This document shows positions 2,311-16,222 of a DNA stretch of 16,222 nt, piece by piece. The first letter of the stretch is position 1. Every line of letters starts with the position of its first letter. The translations under genes were made by a program, and so were the position numbers. The stretch is from NCBI GenBank assembly GCA_017652345.1, contig JAGCBE010000540.1, positions 1 to 16,222 on the forward strand, in the 5' to 3' direction. The stretch is from Methanobrevibacter sp. Lineage in GTDB: Archaea > Methanobacteriota > Methanobacteria > Methanobacteriales > Methanobacteriaceae. The notes under the pieces are model-generated. The model ran no database searches and had not been told where the DNA came from. It saw only the letters and a program-made list of their open reading frames with translations.

Positions 2311-2985
2311 CTAATATAACCCCATAAACAATTCATTTAGATCATTTATGATGTCTTTATCTATAGCAATAATATTATCACGATATTGTTGTATCATTTT
2401 TTGAGCTGTAGCTGATACACCACTATTACCTTTAATTCTTTTTGTTGAACCTTCTTCTGTATTACCAGTTTGTGAATTAGTGTTATTAGTTGTTGATGTA
2501 GATTCACCTGCTTGTGTATCAGATGCATATTTGCCCTCTAATATAGCACTTTTGTTAACTTGTCCTTGTGGTGTATTTGAGTTAATTGTTAAACCATTAG
2601 AATTAGCAGTTTGTGAATCACTTCCTGAAGTACTATTATCAATTGTACGTTCAAATGTTTCTGTATAATCAACATTAACTAAAGGATCATAATTAATACT
2701 AGCTGAATAAATAAGTGGTAACTTTTGTTCCATGATTTCATTCATAGTAACTTTAACATAATGTCTAAATAATGCAGGTGTTTCAAATCCTATTTCACGC
2801 ATGAAGTAATGATCTACAATCTTTTTAGCTAGTTTATCTTTACTCCATGTACCACGATCATTAATAACATCAATTTCATCTTGTGTTAAATAATCAGATA
2901 GTTCATAATCTTTAAACCATCCTTCAACTGTTTCTCTATCAAAAAAGTCAATAACACGTCTAAGTTCAAATGTATATTTACTCAT
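2311..2985 (-). CDS. Lower collar / tail tube protein (phi29 gp11-like)
   Basis: 224 aa, expected to join the head connector to the tail knob. The N-terminal half is helical and charged (FDRETVEGWFKDYELSDYL; FMREIGFETPALFRHYVK), and KLPLIYSASINYDPL follows. A long Ser/Thr/Asn/Gln/Gly-rich stretch (~118-182) includes SNTPQGQ and YASDTQAG, then a helical tail (ATAQKMIQQYRDNIIAIDKD..LNELFMGLY). This pattern is characteristic of lower collar proteins in phi29-like phages: a flexible polar middle with a conserved C-terminal helix ending in LFMxLY/W. The gene overlaps the end of the connector gene by 8 bases (ATGAGTAA), implying translational coupling. It is shorter than phi29 gp11 (293 aa). The call rests on composition, motifs and order. 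Confidence 0.82.
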   Translation of the reverse strand: MSKYTFELRRVIDFFDRETVEGWFKDYELSDYLTQDEIDVINDRGTWSKDKLAKKIVDHYFMREIGFETPALFRHYVKVTMNEIMEQKLPLIYSASINYDPLVNVDYTETFERTIDNSTSGSDSQTANSNGLTINSNTPQGQVNKSAILEGKYASDTQAGESTSTTNNTNSQTGNTEEGSTKRIKGNSGVSATAQKMIQQYRDNIIAIDKDIINDLNELFMGLY

Positions 2986-3964
2986 CTAAATCACCACTTT
3001 CTGTGATTTCATTTTCAAGTAATTTTTCTTTTTCATCTAATATAACTGATTCAGCATTTTTAATAATGTTATGTAAGTCTGATCTAACTCTTACTTCAAT
3101 TTTATCATCACCAGTTAAACCATATAATTCATTGAATTGATCACATGCTTTTTGTCTTGGTGCTAGTCTACTTTGTAGGTAAAGGTTTATTACTTCATTA
3201 TTTTGATTAGCTTCATCAGTAATTAGTCTTTCTTTTTTCTCAATTGATATTGAGTTAACTCCTAAAAATTGAAGGAATTCGTTCCAGATTTCTTTTTTAT
3301 AATCAATAACTTTATCACAAATAAAAGGTGCATCAGTTTTTAATGATTTTAAACTATTTTCATTTATATTTGAATCTTTATCACCAAATATAAAAGGTTG
3401 ATTGCCATCATATTGAGAATATAAGTTTTCCATAGTCAAGCGTTGTTTATCAGAACATACAACCATAACTGGAGTACGTTGTGCAGACATATTAACATCT
3501 GCTGTTCTTTGAGCTAGATACATTCTATAAGCAAATTGTTCAATTGTAAATGCTGTAGGCATTCCTTCCCAATCGTTCATTACAAATATACATTCTTCTT
3601 CACGTTGTTTTTTAATAGTTTCTTCATCTTCACCTAATTGTGTAAATAATTTTTTATACCAATGTAAGCCATTAAAAGTATTACACATTAGAGCACTAGG
3701 TAGTCCATAAATATTTAAATATCCATTAGTTGAACATTGTGTATTAATGAATCCGAATTCAGGAGTTTCAAACATTGTAGCCATACCTTTATAATATAAT
3801 GATCTTTCTAAATATCTTGAATCCATTCCTTTTGGTAACTTCCATTCAAACATTGATAAAGCTACCATTTTCATACGTCTTAGATAGTCAAAATATGTAT
3901 CATCATTAGATAAAGCAGAATCGATAAATTTTAAATTATCTGGTCGAACGTTTTTTCTTCTCAT
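2978..3964 (-). CDS. Upper collar connector / portal protein (phi29 gp10-like)
   Basis: 328 aa. In phi29 the homologous protein (309 aa) forms the dodecameric portal through which DNA enters and on which pRNA assembles. Seen here: SMFEWKLPKGMDSRYLERSLYY in parts near residues 37-58, then GYLNIYGLPSALMC around 82-95. These match the usual opening of this family (FEW-LP, a helix ending in a small loop, N-YG-P). The C-terminal region is helical and acidic. The start has a strong ribosome site (GAAAGGAAGG). It lies between tail knob and lower collar, as expected from phi29-type order, and overlaps the following lower collar gene by 8 bases. It would be the docking partner of the candidate pRNA at 14864-15031. 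Confidence 0.85.
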   Translation of the reverse strand: MRRKNVRPDNLKFIDSALSNDDTYFDYLRRMKMVALSMFEWKLPKGMDSRYLERSLYYKGMATMFETPEFGFINTQCSTNGYLNIYGLPSALMCNTFNGLHWYKKLFTQLGEDEETIKKQREEECIFVMNDWEGMPTAFTIEQFAYRMYLAQRTADVNMSAQRTPVMVVCSDKQRLTMENLYSQYDGNQPFIFGDKDSNINENSLKSLKTDAPFICDKVIDYKKEIWNEFLQFLGVNSISIEKKERLITDEANQNNEVINLYLQSRLAPRQKACDQFNELYGLTGDDKIEVRVRSDLHNIIKNAESVILDEKEKLLENEITESGDLDE

Positions 3965-9037: not shown

Positions 9038-10795
9038 TTACGATTTTATTGTAAAGTCTGTAGGAACTAGAATAACACCACCTTTAACGTGTTTATATGT
9101 TAATTTCTTTTCTGTAAAGTTAGGATCATCAGCTTTAATTGAAAATCCTGATACAAAATTATTTAAATTAACATATTTACCTAAACGTTTTGGCATTCCA
9201 GCAATAGTTGAATTAATTTTATTATCTTTATCTATTTCTATATAGCATTTTTGTCTTATGAATTTAGCACGTATAAAACTTGATTCAACTTTATAAGCAC
9301 CTAATTCATAATCATCTATCCTCATAAATTGTTTCAATTCATCTTCTGATAATTTTAAGCAATGTATTGAATCAGTATCTGAATAAATATAATAATCTAT
9401 TCCATACTTTTTTAATGTATAATCACGTATAGCTTGACTATTCCTAATTATATCTGCACGTGCATAACTTGTTATAAATGATGCAACTGGACAATATATT
9501 GTATCTCTATCTCTTCTGTCATAGCATTTATAACGTATAATATCATCTTCTAGTAATGGATATTTACCACGTACAGAAGAACCTAACCCAAATTTACCAT
9601 ATAAAGAGTTAAGCATAAGTTTAGCAATTTGTCTTTTAGCACCATTACCTTCTTTACCTGCTTTAATCTTTTCACCCATCCAATGATCTATATAATTTTT
9701 GAAAAGACCTTTTATTCTTTTGAATTTAAAACCATCATGATATTCTAAATATTCAACATCATAATGTTCAAAAAATAATTCCAGATCAACATTAGTTAAT
9801 ACTAATGTTTCAATTCTACCATTAGTAGTTTCAATATATTCATTATCCATATATCCTAATGTATGTTTTAATTGTACTGTAGGTAACTTTCCATCCTTTA
9901 CTTTAAAAGAACAACTAAACATCTGAATATATAAAGGATGTGTTTTATCATCTTCATATTTACCTTCAAAATAAACAGGATCACCAAATGGCATGTAACA
10001 TTCATACATCATGGAAGGATACATGCTATTCTTATCAATAACAAGTCCTTCACCAACAGTAGTATCTTTATATAGTGGATTCAAATAAGTCCATCCACCA
10101 CGATAACTTTTTCTTATTAATTCATCCTTTAATCCAATGTTCGGATAGTAATTATCAAAAGACATTAAAGTCTTTTTATAATAAGATAAAGCATCAGAAC
10201 CAATTGTCATTTTATCTAAATGTTCATTAAACATAATATCTAATGCACGAGCCATTATTTCAACATCATTACGAATATAATCTATTTCATATTGCTGTAG
10301 TTTATATCCTACTGGACGATATCTATCATAGTCTAATTCTAACTTATTAATCGGTAACTTAAAATCTTTAGCAATCTTTTCAACTGAAAAATTTAATATT
10401 TTAAGTGAATCAATAAATGTAACTTTATTAATCTTTTTACCACGTACAGTAAAATATACTTCTACAGAATAAAATAGACCTGTATCAGATAAAAGACACG
10501 TAAATGTTTTATCTTTACGTGCCTTTTTATCTTCAATACACTCATATCCGTTTTTTAGTAACCAATAAAAGATATATTCACCATCAAATTTTAAATTATG
10601 AAAATAGCATGTATAATTAGCTTTAGTATTCATGCACCATGACATAAAGTCATCAATATTAGTTCCAAATTTAAAATTATCTGGATTTCCTATTTCAGAT
10701 ATAGAAAATGCCCAAACACGTGCATAACCATCTCTTTTAAACCATTCCAGAGTTGATGTTTCAAAATCGCAACAATAACGATTTTTCTTTTTCAT
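9038..10795 (-). CDS. Protein-primed family B DNA polymerase (phi29 gp2-like)
   Basis: 585 aa (phi29 polymerase 572). All key motifs are present. Exonuclease: Exo I Asp10/Glu12 (CCDFETS), Exo II Asn67 and Asp71 (FHNLKFD), Exo III Tyr173 and Asp177 (YIRND). YRGG at 231-234 links the exonuclease and polymerase modules. Polymerase: motif A Asp254 (DKNSMYPS), motif B Lys392 (KLMLNSLYG), motif C Asp473/Asp475 (YSDTDS) and KCY at 516-518. The region between motifs A and B, about 260-390, holds the TPR1/TPR2-type insertions of protein-primed enzymes. It starts on the terminal protein and continues by strand displacement without a helicase. Its ATG shares one base with the terminal protein stop (TAATG), and no strong ribosome site is seen, so translation is probably coupled. 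No key residue is missing. Confidence 0.98.
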   Translation of the reverse strand: MKKKNRYCCDFETSTLEWFKRDGYARVWAFSISEIGNPDNFKFGTNIDDFMSWCMNTKANYTCYFHNLKFDGEYIFYWLLKNGYECIEDKKARKDKTFTCLLSDTGLFYSVEVYFTVRGKKINKVTFIDSLKILNFSVEKIAKDFKLPINKLELDYDRYRPVGYKLQQYEIDYIRNDVEIMARALDIMFNEHLDKMTIGSDALSYYKKTLMSFDNYYPNIGLKDELIRKSYRGGWTYLNPLYKDTTVGEGLVIDKNSMYPSMMYECYMPFGDPVYFEGKYEDDKTHPLYIQMFSCSFKVKDGKLPTVQLKHTLGYMDNEYIETTNGRIETLVLTNVDLELFFEHYDVEYLEYHDGFKFKRIKGLFKNYIDHWMGEKIKAGKEGNGAKRQIAKLMLNSLYGKFGLGSSVRGKYPLLEDDIIRYKCYDRRDRDTIYCPVASFITSYARADIIRNSQAIRDYTLKKYGIDYYIYSDTDSIHCLKLSEDELKQFMRIDDYELGAYKVESSFIRAKFIRQKCYIEIDKDNKINSTIAGMPKRLGKYVNLNNFVSGFSIKADDPNFTEKKLTYKHVKGGVILVPTDFTIKS

Positions 10796-11586
10796 TATTT
10801 ATAATCTTTCAAAATATCATCGATATTCTCAAATAAAGATTCATAAATACTGACAACATCTGATTCCATATTCTCAAATGCAACATCCACTCCTAATTCA
10901 TTGATCTGATTATAATAATATAATATTTGTTTAATAGTTGATTCTGTTTTAAATAATTTATCAAATTGAGCTGGTGATAAGTCCAGCACCTTCTCACGAA
11001 GATCATGAAGTTTAGCATGTGGTATATTATAAACATAACCACTTTCAAGTAACATATCAGCATAATTCTTTTGCCATTCTGATAAATTTACAGTTCTGGC
11101 ATTAGATTCAAGTTTTTCTAAATAATCTGTTAATTCAGTACCAGTATAATCTAAATAATTGACATCTAATAACATTTTTCTTTGAGCTTCAATGTTTCTT
11201 GATTCTTCATTAAATTGTTCGTATAAAGTATAACGTTCTTCTTTACCTTCATACGTTGGTTTTGTTGTTTTGTTAAACTCTTCACGTGCTGTTAAACGCC
11301 TACTAATAAGCCCACGATAACGTTGTATTTGTTTATATCTATATTGTGGTATCTCTCTACCTTTTACCATGATATTCTTTTCACCACCACGTTTAGTAAA
11401 CTCCATCAAGTTCTTTAGTTTTCTGTTTAAATCAGCACGATTACGAGTTGTTTGTTTTAGTGTTCTTACAGCTATTTTTGAAGGAAGATCATAACCTTTA
11501 CCAGATAAACGTTTTATCTTAGCATTGTAATTTTTAACTATTCTATTTATTTTATTATTAAATTTAGTATCATATCTAATAGCCAT
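10795..11586 (-). CDS. Terminal protein, primer for DNA replication (phi29 gp3-like)
   Basis: 263 aa (phi29 TP 266), immediately upstream of and translationally coupled to the polymerase, the same order as phi29 genes 3 and 2. Terminal proteins diverge strongly, so the call rests on size, order and charge. The N-terminal 100 residues are very basic (KFNNKINRIVKNYNAKIKR, TRNRADLNRKLKNL), consistent with DNA or nucleoid binding. The middle is helical. The C-terminal ~60 residues are acidic and helical, where the priming hydroxyl lies in phi29 (Ser232). Possible priming residues here are Thr or Ser in TEST at 214-217, or nearby tyrosines; this cannot be decided by eye. The ribosome site is AGGTGG. 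The protein would stay covalently bound to both 5' ends. Confidence 0.85.
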   Translation of the reverse strand: MAIRYDTKFNNKINRIVKNYNAKIKRLSGKGYDLPSKIAVRTLKQTTRNRADLNRKLKNLMEFTKRGGEKNIMVKGREIPQYRYKQIQRYRGLISRRLTAREEFNKTTKPTYEGKEERYTLYEQFNEESRNIEAQRKMLLDVNYLDYTGTELTDYLEKLESNARTVNLSEWQKNYADMLLESGYVYNIPHAKLHDLREKVLDLSPAQFDKLFKTESTIKQILYYYNQINELGVDVAFENMESDVVSIYESLFENIDDILKDYK

Positions 11587-12780: not shown

Positions 12781-12944
12781 ATATTCACTCCTTTCTGTTT
12801 GTTTTAGTACCTTATAAGTACCATGATGGAATAGGATACCATCAGATGACCGACAACAGTATCCGCTGAGAAAAACAAGCCCCCGATTAAGCTTGGACGG
12901 TTTTAGCATTATATTCCATCATGCTACCTATAAAGATAGCATTT
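12781..12944 (-). promoter_or_regulatory. Structured leader RNA before the replication operon
   Basis: A noncoding stretch noticeably richer in G and C than its surroundings. Leftward RNA can form H0 (12944-12937 with 12928-12921). P1 is 12 perfect pairs (12923-12912 with 12833-12822). P2 is 6 pairs (12864-12859 with 12839-12834), directly stacked on P1. A terminator-like hairpin, CAAGC/GCUUG (12895-12891 with 12880-12876), is followed by UUUUU. H0 and P1 share three bases, so they compete. ACCG (12901-12898) can pair with CGGU (12852-12849) as a pseudoknot. H0 needs a U-G pair that only the leftward strand can form. It is probably a cis-acting attenuator, riboswitch-like or translation-control element; the class is unknown. 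Confidence 0.6.
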
Positions 12945-13528: not shown

Positions 13529-13763
13529 TTTGATTATCCTTTACTAGATAGCATTTATTAGCACTTATTAAATAAATATCACCATTACTTATTATTTGTA
13601 ATTGTTCACCTTCATAATCACTCCATTTATCAATTTTTAACTCAAATTGATTCCCATCATAATTACAAACTGCCTTATCATAAGTATATTCTAAATCAAA
13701 TATCTGTCTATTACATCCTGTCAACATAAAAGCTAACAAACATATTGTTATAATCTTTTTCAT
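13515..13763 (-). CDS. Small phage lipoprotein
   Basis: 82 aa with a type II (lipoprotein) signal: MKKIITICLLAFMLTGC, lipobox Leu14-Thr-Gly-Cys17, so Cys17 would be lipidated and the protein anchored on the outer face of the membrane. The mature part is a small beta-rich domain (FDLEYTYDKAVCNYDGN, KIDKWSDYEGEQLQIISN, DIYLISANKCYLVKD) with two more cysteines (33 and 71) that could form a disulphide. The 'W-DYE-GEQ-QI' block resembles small proteins common in phages of gut Firmicutes. Some phage lipoproteins block superinfection; nothing here proves that for this one. Its ATG overlaps the stop of the 51-aa ORF (ATGA), implying coupling. Confidence 0.8.
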   Translation of the reverse strand: MKKIITICLLAFMLTGCNRQIFDLEYTYDKAVCNYDGNQFELKIDKWSDYEGEQLQIISNGDIYLISANKCYLVKDNQNENS

Positions 13764-13915
13764 TCTTCATCCACTCCTTTGAGTTCTTTATATCCTTCTA
13801 AAGCAACCTTTAAATAAAAATATGTTTTATCTATTTCACTTTCTTCTATTGCATTTAATTTTATTAATTCTTTAAACATTTCACATATTTTATCTATTTT
13901 TTCTTCAGTACTCAT
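13760..13915 (-). CDS. Small acidic helical protein (51 aa)
   Basis: A short ORF encoding MSTEEKIDKICEMFKELIKL and continuing to GYKELKGVDEE. It is almost entirely amphipathic helix, Glu/Lys-rich with one Cys. The ribosome site TAGGAG lies about 10 bases upstream of the ATG. It overlaps the preceding 32-aa ORF and the following lipoprotein gene by ATGA junctions, so it lies in an unbroken chain of coupled genes. Function unknown; the charge and size suit a small binding or inhibitor protein. Confidence 0.65.
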   Translation of the reverse strand: MSTEEKIDKICEMFKELIKLNAIEESEIDKTYFYLKVALEGYKELKGVDEE

Positions 13916-14575: not shown

Positions 14576-14724
14576 AATTCATCACATACTTCTTCACTTT
14601 GACCTTTTGCAATACAATCACTTACAGCATTAGCTGATAACTTATAATTAAAATAAAAGTAACCAAATAATACTATAATTAGAAATACAACCTTCACCCA
14701 TGTCCTTAAATGTCTTTTTGTCAT
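14566..14724 (-). CDS. Small single-span membrane protein (52 aa), first early gene
   Basis: A 52-codon ORF: basic start (MTKRHLRTWVK), one membrane span (VVFLIIVLFGYFYF, ~12-25), then a polar tail with two cysteines (SDCIAKGQ, EEVCDEL). The positive N-terminus predicts N-in, C-out topology. The ribosome site GAAGGAG lies 7-8 bases before the ATG. It is the first gene of the leftward unit, about 40 bases downstream of the candidate promoter, so it would be among the earliest made. The two external cysteines could form a disulphide. Possible roles are host takeover, membrane attachment or exclusion; there is no recognised family. Confidence 0.65.
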   Translation of the reverse strand: MTKRHLRTWVKVVFLIIVLFGYFYFNYKLSANAVSDCIAKGQSEEVCDELWK

Positions 14725-14762
14725 TCTTGTTCACTCCTTCGTTTTACCCTTCTGACATTTTA

Positions 14763-14791
14763 AACTTATCATAGTCAAAATAATAAGTCAA
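14763..14791 (-). promoter_or_regulatory. Candidate leftward early promoter
   Basis: Leftward TTGACT (14791-14786), 17-bp spacer, then TAAGTT (14768-14763) preceded by TG at 14771-14770 (extended -10). The -10 itself is a poor match. Support comes from the shared block TATTGAC-N13-TATGATA, also found before the scaffold gene, and from position upstream of the first early gene with nothing else leftward-facing in the gap. Confidence 0.45.
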
Positions 14792-14795
14792 TACA

Positions 14796-14813
14796 TTTTT
14801 TAAAAAATTTTTT
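14796..14813. other. A/T-tract block, probable bent DNA between divergent promoters
   Basis: Runs T6-A6-T6 lie between the leftward promoter candidate and the rightward promoter at 14828. Such tracts bend DNA and can serve as UP elements. In phi29 a curved region between divergent promoters is bound by regulator p4; only the analogy in position is claimed here. Apart from this and the promoters, 14725-14860 holds no gene that I can see. Confidence 0.4.
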
Positions 14814-14827
14814 GTATTTATTAAAAT

Positions 14828-14857
14828 TTGACATTTTTGTGTAAATTGCTATATAAT
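14828..14857 (+). promoter_or_regulatory. Strong consensus promoter for the pRNA candidate
   Basis: TTGACA (14828-14833) and TATAAT (14852-14857), both perfect matches to the vegetative sigma-factor consensus, are separated by 18 bp. The AT-rich stretch just upstream may act as an UP element. Transcription should start near G14864. It is the best promoter in the window. Confidence 0.85.
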
Positions 14858-14863
14858 AATGTT

Positions 14864-15031
14864 GAACAGATATATGTAGATATTAATGTTTGAAATTATA
14901 ATGCATGTTTTCATGTTATCCCAGTGAAGAACTGTTTGAAACCATAATGTCCTGATAAGACCGTTATAAAAATGTTATTAATTTGCATGAAATGTTCACT
15001 CCTATTGGCATGTTTCGTACATGCCTTTTTT
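14864..15031 (+). ncRNA. Candidate packaging RNA (phi29-type pRNA)
   Basis: A short RNA between a consensus promoter and an intrinsic terminator, about 168 nt in all (phi29 pRNA transcript 174 nt). Hand folding gives a closing helix made of 14864-14868/14993-14997, 14874-14882/14979-14988 (one bulge), 14884-14891/14970-14977 and 14896-14903/14962-14969. A three-way junction follows. Helix C is 14905-14913/14937-14945 with one mismatch; hairpin E is CAGU/ACUG (14922-14925/14931-14934); hairpin D is GUC/GAC (14949-14951/14959-14961). The CE loop just before E has UUAUC (14916-14920) and the D loop has GAUAA (14954-14958), exact complements, as for the interlocking R and L loops of phi29. Three unpaired bases join C to D, as in phi29. 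It would form a ring on the portal and hold the ATPase encoded just downstream. No protein-coding frame explains it. Confidence 0.8.
15007..15031 (+). terminator. Intrinsic terminator ending the pRNA candidate
   Basis: GGCATGT (15007-15013) pairs with ACATGCC (15019-15025) across a 5-nt loop, followed by six T residues (15026-15031). It is a strong terminator between the folded RNA and the ATPase gene, so the RNA can be made in large amounts without ATPase mRNA; some readthrough is possible. Confidence 0.9.
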
Positions 15032-15032
15032 A

Positions 15033-15041
15033 TGTTATAAT
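15033..15041 (+). promoter_or_regulatory. Extended -10 promoter candidate for the ATPase gene
   Basis: TG-T-TATAAT (15033-15041), a perfect -10 with the extended TG, starts two bases after the terminator T-tract. The -35 region (15013-15018, TTTCGT) is poor. Transcription would start near 15048, just before the ribosome site AAGGA, giving a very short 5' leader. It would allow separate, lower ATPase expression. Confidence 0.5.
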
Positions 15042-15062
15042 AAACATGAAGGATGTGAACTT

Positions 15063-16100
15063 ATGCAAATAGATAAATCTATTTATATTAACTTTGATAA
15101 GGTGTTATCATATAATGCTTTTTTGACAATGTTAATATCAGATCGTGGTGTTGGTAAAACATACGGTGCAAAAAAATACTGTATTAATCATTATATAAAG
15201 AAACATAAAAAATTTGCGTGGATTAGACGTTATGGTACTGATTTAGGTGAAACCTTTGGCGATGCTAAAGAACCTAATAAATTTTTTAAAGATGTTTCTG
15301 TAGAATTTCCTAAATACGATTTTTCAACTGAAAACGATGAACGTGGCAAAATAAAATATTGTCTAATGAATGATCATATTATCGGTTATGGTATGAGCTT
15401 AAAATCTGCTGAATCACTTAAAGGTACACAATACAATGATGTTGATACTATTATATTAGATGAATTCTTAGTCGGTGATGGTGGATCACGTTATATTAAA
15501 GATGAACCGATGTATTTATTATCCATCATTGAATCAATTGCACGTTTAAGAAAAGTACGTGTTATTCTCTTAGGTAACTCAACATCAATTGTTAATCCTT
15601 ATTTTGATTTTTTCAATGTTCATTTACCTTATGATTCTGAATATCAACTTTTCAAGAATAACACTATTTTAGTAGCATACATTCAAAACTTAAAATATCG
15701 TGAAGTTAAAAAACAAACTGATTTTGGAAAACTAGTTGCAGGAACTAAATATGAAAATTATGCTATTAATTCACAGTTTATTAATGATACTAATACATTT
15801 ATTAAAAAGAAAACTAAAACAGCTAGATTATTTTGTAATATAATTTTAAATAATACTATATATGGAGTATGGATGGATCACTTGGACATGTATATTTCTA
15901 AAAAGTATAATCAGAACTATAATGTAACAATAACTTTTGATTATAAAAGTCATAATGAAAAAACATTACTTTTAAAATCAAAAAATGTATTTATGCAAAA
16001 TATTGTTAAACATTACCAGAATGCATCTTTATTTTTTGAAAACCAAAATATAAAACATGCTATACTTGATTTATTACGTAGAACCAACCGATTCCTATAA
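15063..16100 (+). CDS. DNA packaging ATPase (phi29 gp16-like)
   Basis: 345 aa (phi29 gp16 332). Walker A is SDRGVGKT at 26-33 and Walker B is TIILDEF with Asp133/Glu134; YGMSLKSAESLKGTQYNDVD (109-128) precedes Walker B as in gp16. It hydrolyses ATP to pump TP-DNA into the prohead, docked through pRNA on the connector. The frame stays open upstream to an ATG at 15021, but that lies inside the terminator stem. ATG 15063, with AAGGA 9 bases upstream, is the credible start. It is the only protein gene on this strand, apart from all other virion genes. Its last five codons (TNRFL) and stop lie inside the right ITR, so they are duplicated as noncoding sequence at the other end. Confidence 0.93.
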   Translation: MQIDKSIYINFDKVLSYNAFLTMLISDRGVGKTYGAKKYCINHYIKKHKKFAWIRRYGTDLGETFGDAKEPNKFFKDVSVEFPKYDFSTENDERGKIKYCLMNDHIIGYGMSLKSAESLKGTQYNDVDTIILDEFLVGDGGSRYIKDEPMYLLSIIESIARLRKVRVILLGNSTSIVNPYFDFFNVHLPYDSEYQLFKNNTILVAYIQNLKYREVKKQTDFGKLVAGTKYENYAINSQFINDTNTFIKKKTKTARLFCNIILNNTIYGVWMDHLDMYISKKYNQNYNVTITFDYKSHNEKTLLLKSKNVFMQNIVKHYQNASLFFENQNIKHAILDLLRRTNRFL

Positions 16101-16222
16101 CTGAACAATAAGAGAGTACAACAAACGTACTCTTTTGTTTTTGGTGCTTTTTAGACACGTAGGATGATGTTTTTATTGAGTTAGTATTCTTATAAGGTAA
16201 AGGTTTAATTGTTGCTAAATGG
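16082..16222. repeat. Right inverted terminal repeat (141 bp, perfect)
   Basis: Exact reverse complement of 1-141. It contains the last five codons and stop of the ATPase gene, the second copy of the intrinsic terminator, and a replication origin end (terminal GG at the 3' end). Terminal protein would be linked to the 5' end of the complementary strand here. Confidence 0.95.
16113..16147 (+). terminator. Intrinsic terminator in right ITR, ends the ATPase transcript
   Basis: Mirror copy of 76-110: stem AGAGTAC/GTACTCT (16113-16119 with 16127-16133), 7-nt loop, then TTTTGTTTTT. It starts 12 bases after the ATPase stop. Confidence 0.8.

Follow-up and report, generated by a model that had tools for sequence, protein, structure and literature searches.

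Packaging RNAs (pRNAs) of phi29-type phages share a secondary structure and hardly any sequence: one account gives 12% similarity among pRNAs, and the published examples from GA-1, SF5, M2/Nf and the Goe4 group, from Cp-1 and from Av-1 resemble the RNA considered here in just this sense, structure being common and sequence not (PMC5340915). Earlier pRNA predictions drew on BLASTN homology to phi29 and GA-1, and the predicted RNAs sit at a genome terminus, except in GA-1 and Karezi (PMC9965433). A covariance model made from Nf and GA-1 could not be relied on to detect the Cp-1 pRNA (PMC6266182). Lactococcus phage asccphi28 likewise has a phi29-like gp16-type ATPase and a terminal protein, and its motor is described as being without evidence of a pRNA (PMC7823558). 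In the literature open to our search, which reached few subscription journals, we found no publication on a pRNA in the phage clade described below or on a pRNA gene beside the ATPase gene.

The window, by which we mean the whole stretch of 16,222 nucleotides analysed here, appears to be the virtually complete linear genome of a phi29-like phage of the protein-primed type, priming being suggested by the polymerase type and the terminal repeat. Its two ends are perfect inverted copies of each other over 141 bp (1-141 and 16082-16222). The gene set is of phi29 type, with a gp16-type ATPase, gp10 connector, lower collar, tail protein, family-B DNA polymerase, phi29-type SSB and a Phi29_MCP capsid protein that bears an Ig-like tail. 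All family-named genes but one lie on the minus strand; the exception is the ATPase gene near the right end (15063-16100, plus strand), whose 3' end overlaps the right repeat. This gene encodes a phi29 gp16-type DNA packaging ATPase of 345 aa (PF05894, 2.9e-61; phrog_2150, 1.2e-75); its nearest relatives, among the matches listed, measure 344-347 aa, and the closest (P0001-P0014) are 76-88% identical to it. The upper collar connector (gp10; 2978-3964, minus strand; PF05352, 1.3e-55) is the presumed seat of an RNA ring. A gp16 ATPase, a gp10 connector and a linear, probably protein-primed genome, as looked for in a phage with a pRNA, are all present. Megablast of the window against the phages collection gave no match. 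A 263-aa ORF between SSB and polymerase (10795-11586, minus strand) occupies the terminal protein's place and has no PHROGs or Pfam match, and the early region carries a 22-nt inverted repeat (12812-12833 and 12912-12933; 91% complementary, spacing 78 nt).

The initial annotation had placed a packaging RNA of about 168 nt upstream of the ATPase gene, bounded by a promoter and a terminator. Both consensus matches are present at the ends it gave, and its coordinates and letters agree with the sequence. The sigma-70 promoter, TTGACA-18-TATAAT (14828-14857, plus strand), matches the consensus at 12/12 positions. Seven promoter-like sites occur within 14720-15100 vs 3.7 expected in shuffles, and this is the only one at 12/12. 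An intrinsic terminator with its T tract follows at 15007-15031 (plus strand); its terminator-like site (15007-15025), 150 nt past the promoter, is the sole one of the same interval (shuffle mean 0.0, n = 50). The primary transcript would thus span 14864-15031 on the plus strand, a prediction made from consensus matches to promoter and terminator; it takes in the parts covered by two RNA models described below, R1 (14869-14993) and R2 (14878-14983), of both of which the window is a training row. No ORF of at least 50 aa was found on either strand over 14725-15020, and a non-coding interval separates the last minus-strand ORF from the ATPase gene.

Hand folding had assigned the phi29 pRNA plan to this RNA. 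As drawn on the plus strand, an outer closing helix (P1a; 14873-14891 with 14970-14989, two small interruptions) is followed on the 5' strand by a 4-nt bulge (14892-14895; of UUAA type in the family consensus of alignments A3 and A5, and the counterpart of the 3-nt bulge in the Rfam pRNA family RF00044) and by an inner closing helix of 8 bp (P1b; 14896-14903 with 14962-14969). From the three-way junction rises P2, the C helix, 3 + 5 bp and interrupted (14905-14913 with 14937-14945), then a bulge loop of CE type (14914-14921, 8 nt), which carries UUAUC and is complementary to its own partner loop, and the E hairpin (14922-14934; 4 bp and a conserved GAAGA loop). Three unpaired bases, as in RF00044, stand at the junction between the second and third helices (14946-14948), and the D hairpin (14949-14961, loop CUGAUAA) completes the plan.

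RNAfold gives the window RNA a minimum free energy (MFE) of -35.7 kcal/mol (z -2.93), a value reached by 0 of 200 shuffles. The MFE fold contains the closing helix and the E hairpin (pair probability 0.93-0.94); the inner closing helix is absent from it and the C helix is lost. With the inner closing helix, E and D forced, the energy is -35.0 kcal/mol (+0.7), and a local hairpin at 14904-14915 still replaces the C helix (pair probability 0.86 vs about 0.02). Inner closing helix and D hairpin reach 0.27-0.43. Because the C helix is weak, the full plan (-33.7 kcal/mol) lies 2.0 kcal/mol above the MFE, so that a lower fold does exist, yet not one of clearly lower energy, and it shares the closing helix and the E hairpin with the plan. 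As modelled, the C helix is the weakest point of the phi29-type plan in the window, where RNAfold disfavours it; in many relatives it reaches 10-11 bp vs the 3 + 5 bp seen here. A plan-based scan, devised after the family had been seen and able to recover the phi29 pRNA, ranks this site first in the whole window, with a score equalled by 25 of 300 dinucleotide shuffles. Under the family structure (drawn from locus L018) the window forms 33 of 42 pairs vs 12-26 of 40-42 with partners slid. Taken alone, the window sequence is compatible with the plan and suggestive only; it is the relatives that supply the proof, and their covariation upholds the plan.

A protein search with the ATPase gave 317 relatives at E <=1e-20. 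Alignments of 20 and 24 sequences from the best 120 of the 317 (A1 and A2) served for a profile search of viral_contigs, which returned 54 IMG/VR loci with the ATPase gene; when one ATPase sequence was used by itself as the protein pattern no loci came up, and the A1 profile gave none in genome_contigs. A hairpin with a GAAGA loop was seen by eye upstream of the ATPase gene in many of the 54 loci. The window and 21 of the 54 loci, hand-picked for this motif, were aligned by MAFFT on sequence only (A3); a further alignment (A5), in which the C helix is included, holds the window and 19 loci hand-picked for even C-helix length. RNAalifold on A3 yields 25 pairs, and 23 of them show a two-sided change in one or more sequences. 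Once the loop-loop pairs are included, 90.3% of A3 cells are paired and the covariation score is 0.738 vs 0.209 in shuffled alignments (0 of 500 as high) and 0.09-0.14 with partners slid. For A5 the score is 0.742 vs 0.226 shuffled (0 of 500) and 0.15-0.24 slid. Both-side changes, a weaker measure, occur at 26 of 30 pairs in A3 (shuffled mean 22.1) and at 39 of 42 in A5 (shuffled mean 34.7; 3 of 500 shuffles reach 39). Covariation was counted against shuffled controls, which ignore relatedness, and slid controls, which are somewhat flattered because the structures derive from rows of this hand-chosen sort; a gap to the slid control as large as the one seen is beyond what this explains.

The outer closing helix (helix 1) and the inner one (helix 2; 95.0-97.5% of cells paired) covary, and in the E hairpin 100% of cells are paired, with both-side changes at 4 of 4 pairs. 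The D hairpin was the last helix of both covariation tests, and the C helix, helix 3 of A5, is the loosest of its stems (71.4% of cells paired). At the level of the family, covariation and the comparison with RF00044 given below thus yield a closing helix, a three-way junction, an arm with bulge and E hairpin, and a D hairpin.

Two five-base loop stretches had been reported as exact complements, and they are present at the positions given: UUAUC in the bulge loop (14916-14920) and GAUAA in the D loop (14954-14958) can form five Watson-Crick pairs. We compared such loops across 38 distinct loop pairs from 46 matches of alignment A4, which a script had delimited and among which several evident misassignments were kept. 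Between an element's own two loops the longest Watson-Crick match averages 3.82 (n = 38; 24 of 38 reach at least 4) vs 2.81 for permuted partners (sd 0.15; highest of 2000 permutations, 3.45) and 2.55 for letter-shuffled loops, so that loops fit their own partners better than swapped ones. Examples of such matches are UAUCA/UGAUA, UACCA/UGGUA, UUCCA/UGGAA and AGUCA/UGACU. As drawn in A3 and A5 the loop-loop helix pairs in 66.0-72.7% of cells, partly owing to register shifts. Such a preference for own partners is what one would predict for a contact between copies, in which one molecule's bulge pairs with a second molecule's D loop. Collecting homologous loci at gp16-like genes, as the initial annotation had proposed, gave relatives whose helices and both loops covary, and not relatives lacking covarying helices or loop complementarity.

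The earlier view that the primary sequence is unlike that of phi29 pRNA and would escape a homology search is borne out: RF00044 is not listed for 14726-15070 even at E <=10 and has no match at its gathering threshold in 20 of the 54 related loci, where it was run; the phi29 positive control scored 145.4. Rfam scans of the window with relaxed thresholds gave only unrelated families, below the gathering score. In the reverse direction, our RNA models R1, R2 and R3 find neither the phi29 pRNA nor the annotated Av-1 packaging RNA, so that covariance models match in neither direction.

Element by element, the family layout nonetheless fits the RF00044 structure line, as the initial annotation had supposed. 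Both have, in the same order, a closing helix whose 5' strand bulges, a three-way junction, a C helix, a 5' bulge loop, an E hairpin and a D hairpin; in both, the 3' side of the E hairpin lacks unpaired bases (family consensus), three bases stay unpaired at the junction, and bulge and D loops are complementary. The differences lie in dimensions and place. In phi29 the closing-helix bulge, the CCA bulge, has 3 nt and lies 8 bp from the junction, whereas that of the new family has 4 nt of another sequence at 9 bp; the C helix has 9 bp vs 10-11 bp in many rows; the bulge loop 9 nt vs 7 nt; the E hairpin 4 bp with a 6-nt loop vs 4 bp with the 5-nt GAAGA; and the D stem 6 bp vs 3 bp. The phi29 pRNA gene occupies the left end of the genome, a long way from gene 16, whereas the new family is encoded beside the ATPase gene. 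The predicted window transcript of about 170 nt is close in length to the 174 nt given for phi29 pRNA (PMC11476376).

We found that R1 matches 45 of the 54 ATPase loci and R2 48 of 54 (E <=0.03), always on the ATPase strand. R3 was built from the R2 matches and applied to 18 phage loci and to the six loci that R2 had missed; it adds three non-training loci (L040, L017 and L020), leaving three of the 54 (L008, L030 and L054) with no match to R1, R2 or R3. The window is a training row of all three models, so that its own scores are not independent. The 49 R2 matches comprise 47 distinct sequences, a few of them nearly identical. When 47 viral stretches were picked by exact E-hairpin motifs only, R2 matched nine, four of which are its training rows, and all nine are on contigs already among the ATPase loci; in the 38 stretches from other contigs, likewise chosen by motif alone, R2 had no match. 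Nor did R1 and R2 find anything credible in 18 loci from named or deposited phage records.

An ATPase tree of 62 rows, from which proteins below 250 aa were left out, includes the window and 42 of the 48 R2 loci. A single group of 47 rows (support 93/87, below the starred level) takes in all R2 rows and four of the five R2 misses that the tree includes; phi29, Enterococcus phage Athos and actinobacterial phages fall outside it. Next to the window stands L001, at 60% identity.

The position of the element invites the reading that it acts in cis as a 5' leader of the ATPase message, an autoregulatory element or attenuator, with no free RNA made. The R2 element lies 5' of the ATPase gene in 46 of 48 loci (ATPase starts set by script, three by hand); it ends at most 60 nt before the start in 41 and 68-177 nt before it in four. 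Many relatives leave little space for a separate terminator. The window, with 79 nt from the end of the R2 element to the ATPase start, does have one between RNA and gene. Two further arrangements also speak against a leader. In L027 the element ends 327 nt before the ATPase start and a 65-aa ORF lies between. In L022 (element 3532-3636) and L037 (3503-3607) it stands 3' of the ATPase gene, between a promoter match of its own (10/12 and 11/12) and a T tract; the next feature in L022 is a same-strand 119-aa ORF, and in L037 a run of opposite-strand ORFs, overlapped by one same-strand 67-aa ORF. The mutual covariation of the two loops, and a layout that is that of the phi29 pRNA, encoded far from gene 16 in phi29, also tell against a leader. 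A small free RNA explains L022, L037, L027 and the window's terminator; an ATPase leader does not, and because of these three loci we regard a leader as improbable.

Across the family, 25 of 49 elements are preceded, at a distance of up to 110 nt, by a promoter match of 10/12 or better vs 6.4% of shuffled upstream stretches; at 9/12 the figures are 37 of 49 vs 30.5%, and four elements have none by this rule. In five loci (L009, L011, L012, L014 and L048) we saw a T-rich stretch, uncounted, close behind the closing helix and before the ATPase start; in these the RNA may act as its own terminator.

A free, structured RNA might still act in trans in some other job, for example early/late gene control, and share the pRNA layout by accident; in its favour, any function of the RNA in this clade is so far a prediction from sequence. 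Its occurrence next to gp16 in 48 of the 54 loci, the lack of any R2 match in the 38 motif-picked stretches from other contigs and the element-by-element agreement with RF00044, complementary loops included, make this reading very hard to credit. A chance fold, over-read by hand, which the 25 equally scoring window shuffles of 300 and the MFE without a C helix might favour, is, barring a gross error in the alignments, next to impossible given covarying relatives and a promoter and terminator exactly at the ends of the element.

We consider it very likely, by analogy and from sequence comparison, that the locus encodes a trans-acting packaging RNA of the phi29 kind, which would form a ring between connector and ATPase. 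According to the signals in the DNA, this RNA would be transcribed from its own strong promoter and end at the intrinsic terminator. In its fold, which covariation in relatives supports, a closing helix bulged on its 5' strand would lead to a three-way junction, from which a C/E arm carrying a bulged loop and a D hairpin emerge. Consistent with the covariation of the loops, each copy would pair its bulged loop with the D loop of its neighbour, giving a ring. By analogy with phi29, that ring would be seated on the gp10 connector and hold the gp16 ATPase, by which the prohead is filled with DNA; ring formation, stoichiometry, connector seating and the need for the RNA in packaging are carried over from phi29. 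The RNA gene and the adjoining ATPase gene would then make up a compact motor cassette.

Candidates for such RNAs were also seen in other phages. In two unannotated human faecal phage scaffolds the plan-based scan points to folds just upstream of the ATPase gene, with sequences unlike the new family: MT836502 (L059, 1392-1470; 0 of 400 shuffles of the locus as good) and MT839814 (L061, 1388-1460; a scan score given without shuffle control). In Hungatella phage CH17P1 (OP172758, L124), which has a named host strain and an ATPase 27% identical to the window's, the best plan-based site (13703-13776; 0 of 120 shuffles) is unannotated and lies between the polymerase and the annotated packaging protein; the same site is R3's only match at E <=10 (17.9 bits, E 0.15). 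R3 further matches MT836189 just behind the polymerase (E 0.0008) and, weakly, MT835826 (E 0.47).

The top site of the plan-based scan is the R2 element in only 17 of the 54 IMG/VR loci, and in Av-1 the annotated packaging RNA is not its match. Two further sites beat six shuffles each, in Cp-1 (16084-16161, inside the holin gene) and in Curtobacterium phage Fairywren (14793-14868); both lie in genes and were not taken as pRNAs, so a single high plan-based score is no proof. In asccphi28, R1-R3 and the plan-based scan found no pRNA above chance: the best R2 match (16.7 bits) lacks the interior, and the scan score is within that of its six shuffles. The inverted terminal repeat of this phage (L064, 1-577) has an annotated promoter P1 and terminator T1 that suggest a short transcript, in which no phi29-type fold stands above chance.

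Judged by sequence comparison, these elements make up a new sequence family within the phi29 kind of pRNA, distinct from RF00044 as modelled and with no covariance-model match to the phi29 or Av-1 RNA; its hallmarks are the conserved GAAGA E loop and the UUAA-type closing-helix bulge. Its members come from a clade of uncultured phages; faecal phages and Hungatella phage CH17P1 supply further candidates, and the relatives suggest that such RNAs extend well past the phages in which pRNAs were known. The roughly 50 natural versions (47 distinct) give covariation of the predicted intermolecular contact itself, the conserved E loop and bulge may mark protein contacts, and the family offers new three-way-junction building blocks. 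It also lets one ask whether the RNA is ancestral to phi29-type motors. We lean slightly towards the view that a packaging RNA is ancestral and general to such motors, beyond the Bacillus phages, often encoded in a two-gene cassette with the ATPase and diverged past every sequence model, and that motors apparently without a pRNA, such as that of asccphi28, would reflect later losses or unrecognised RNAs. Hungatella phage CH17P1, with its named host strain, may render this idea testable.
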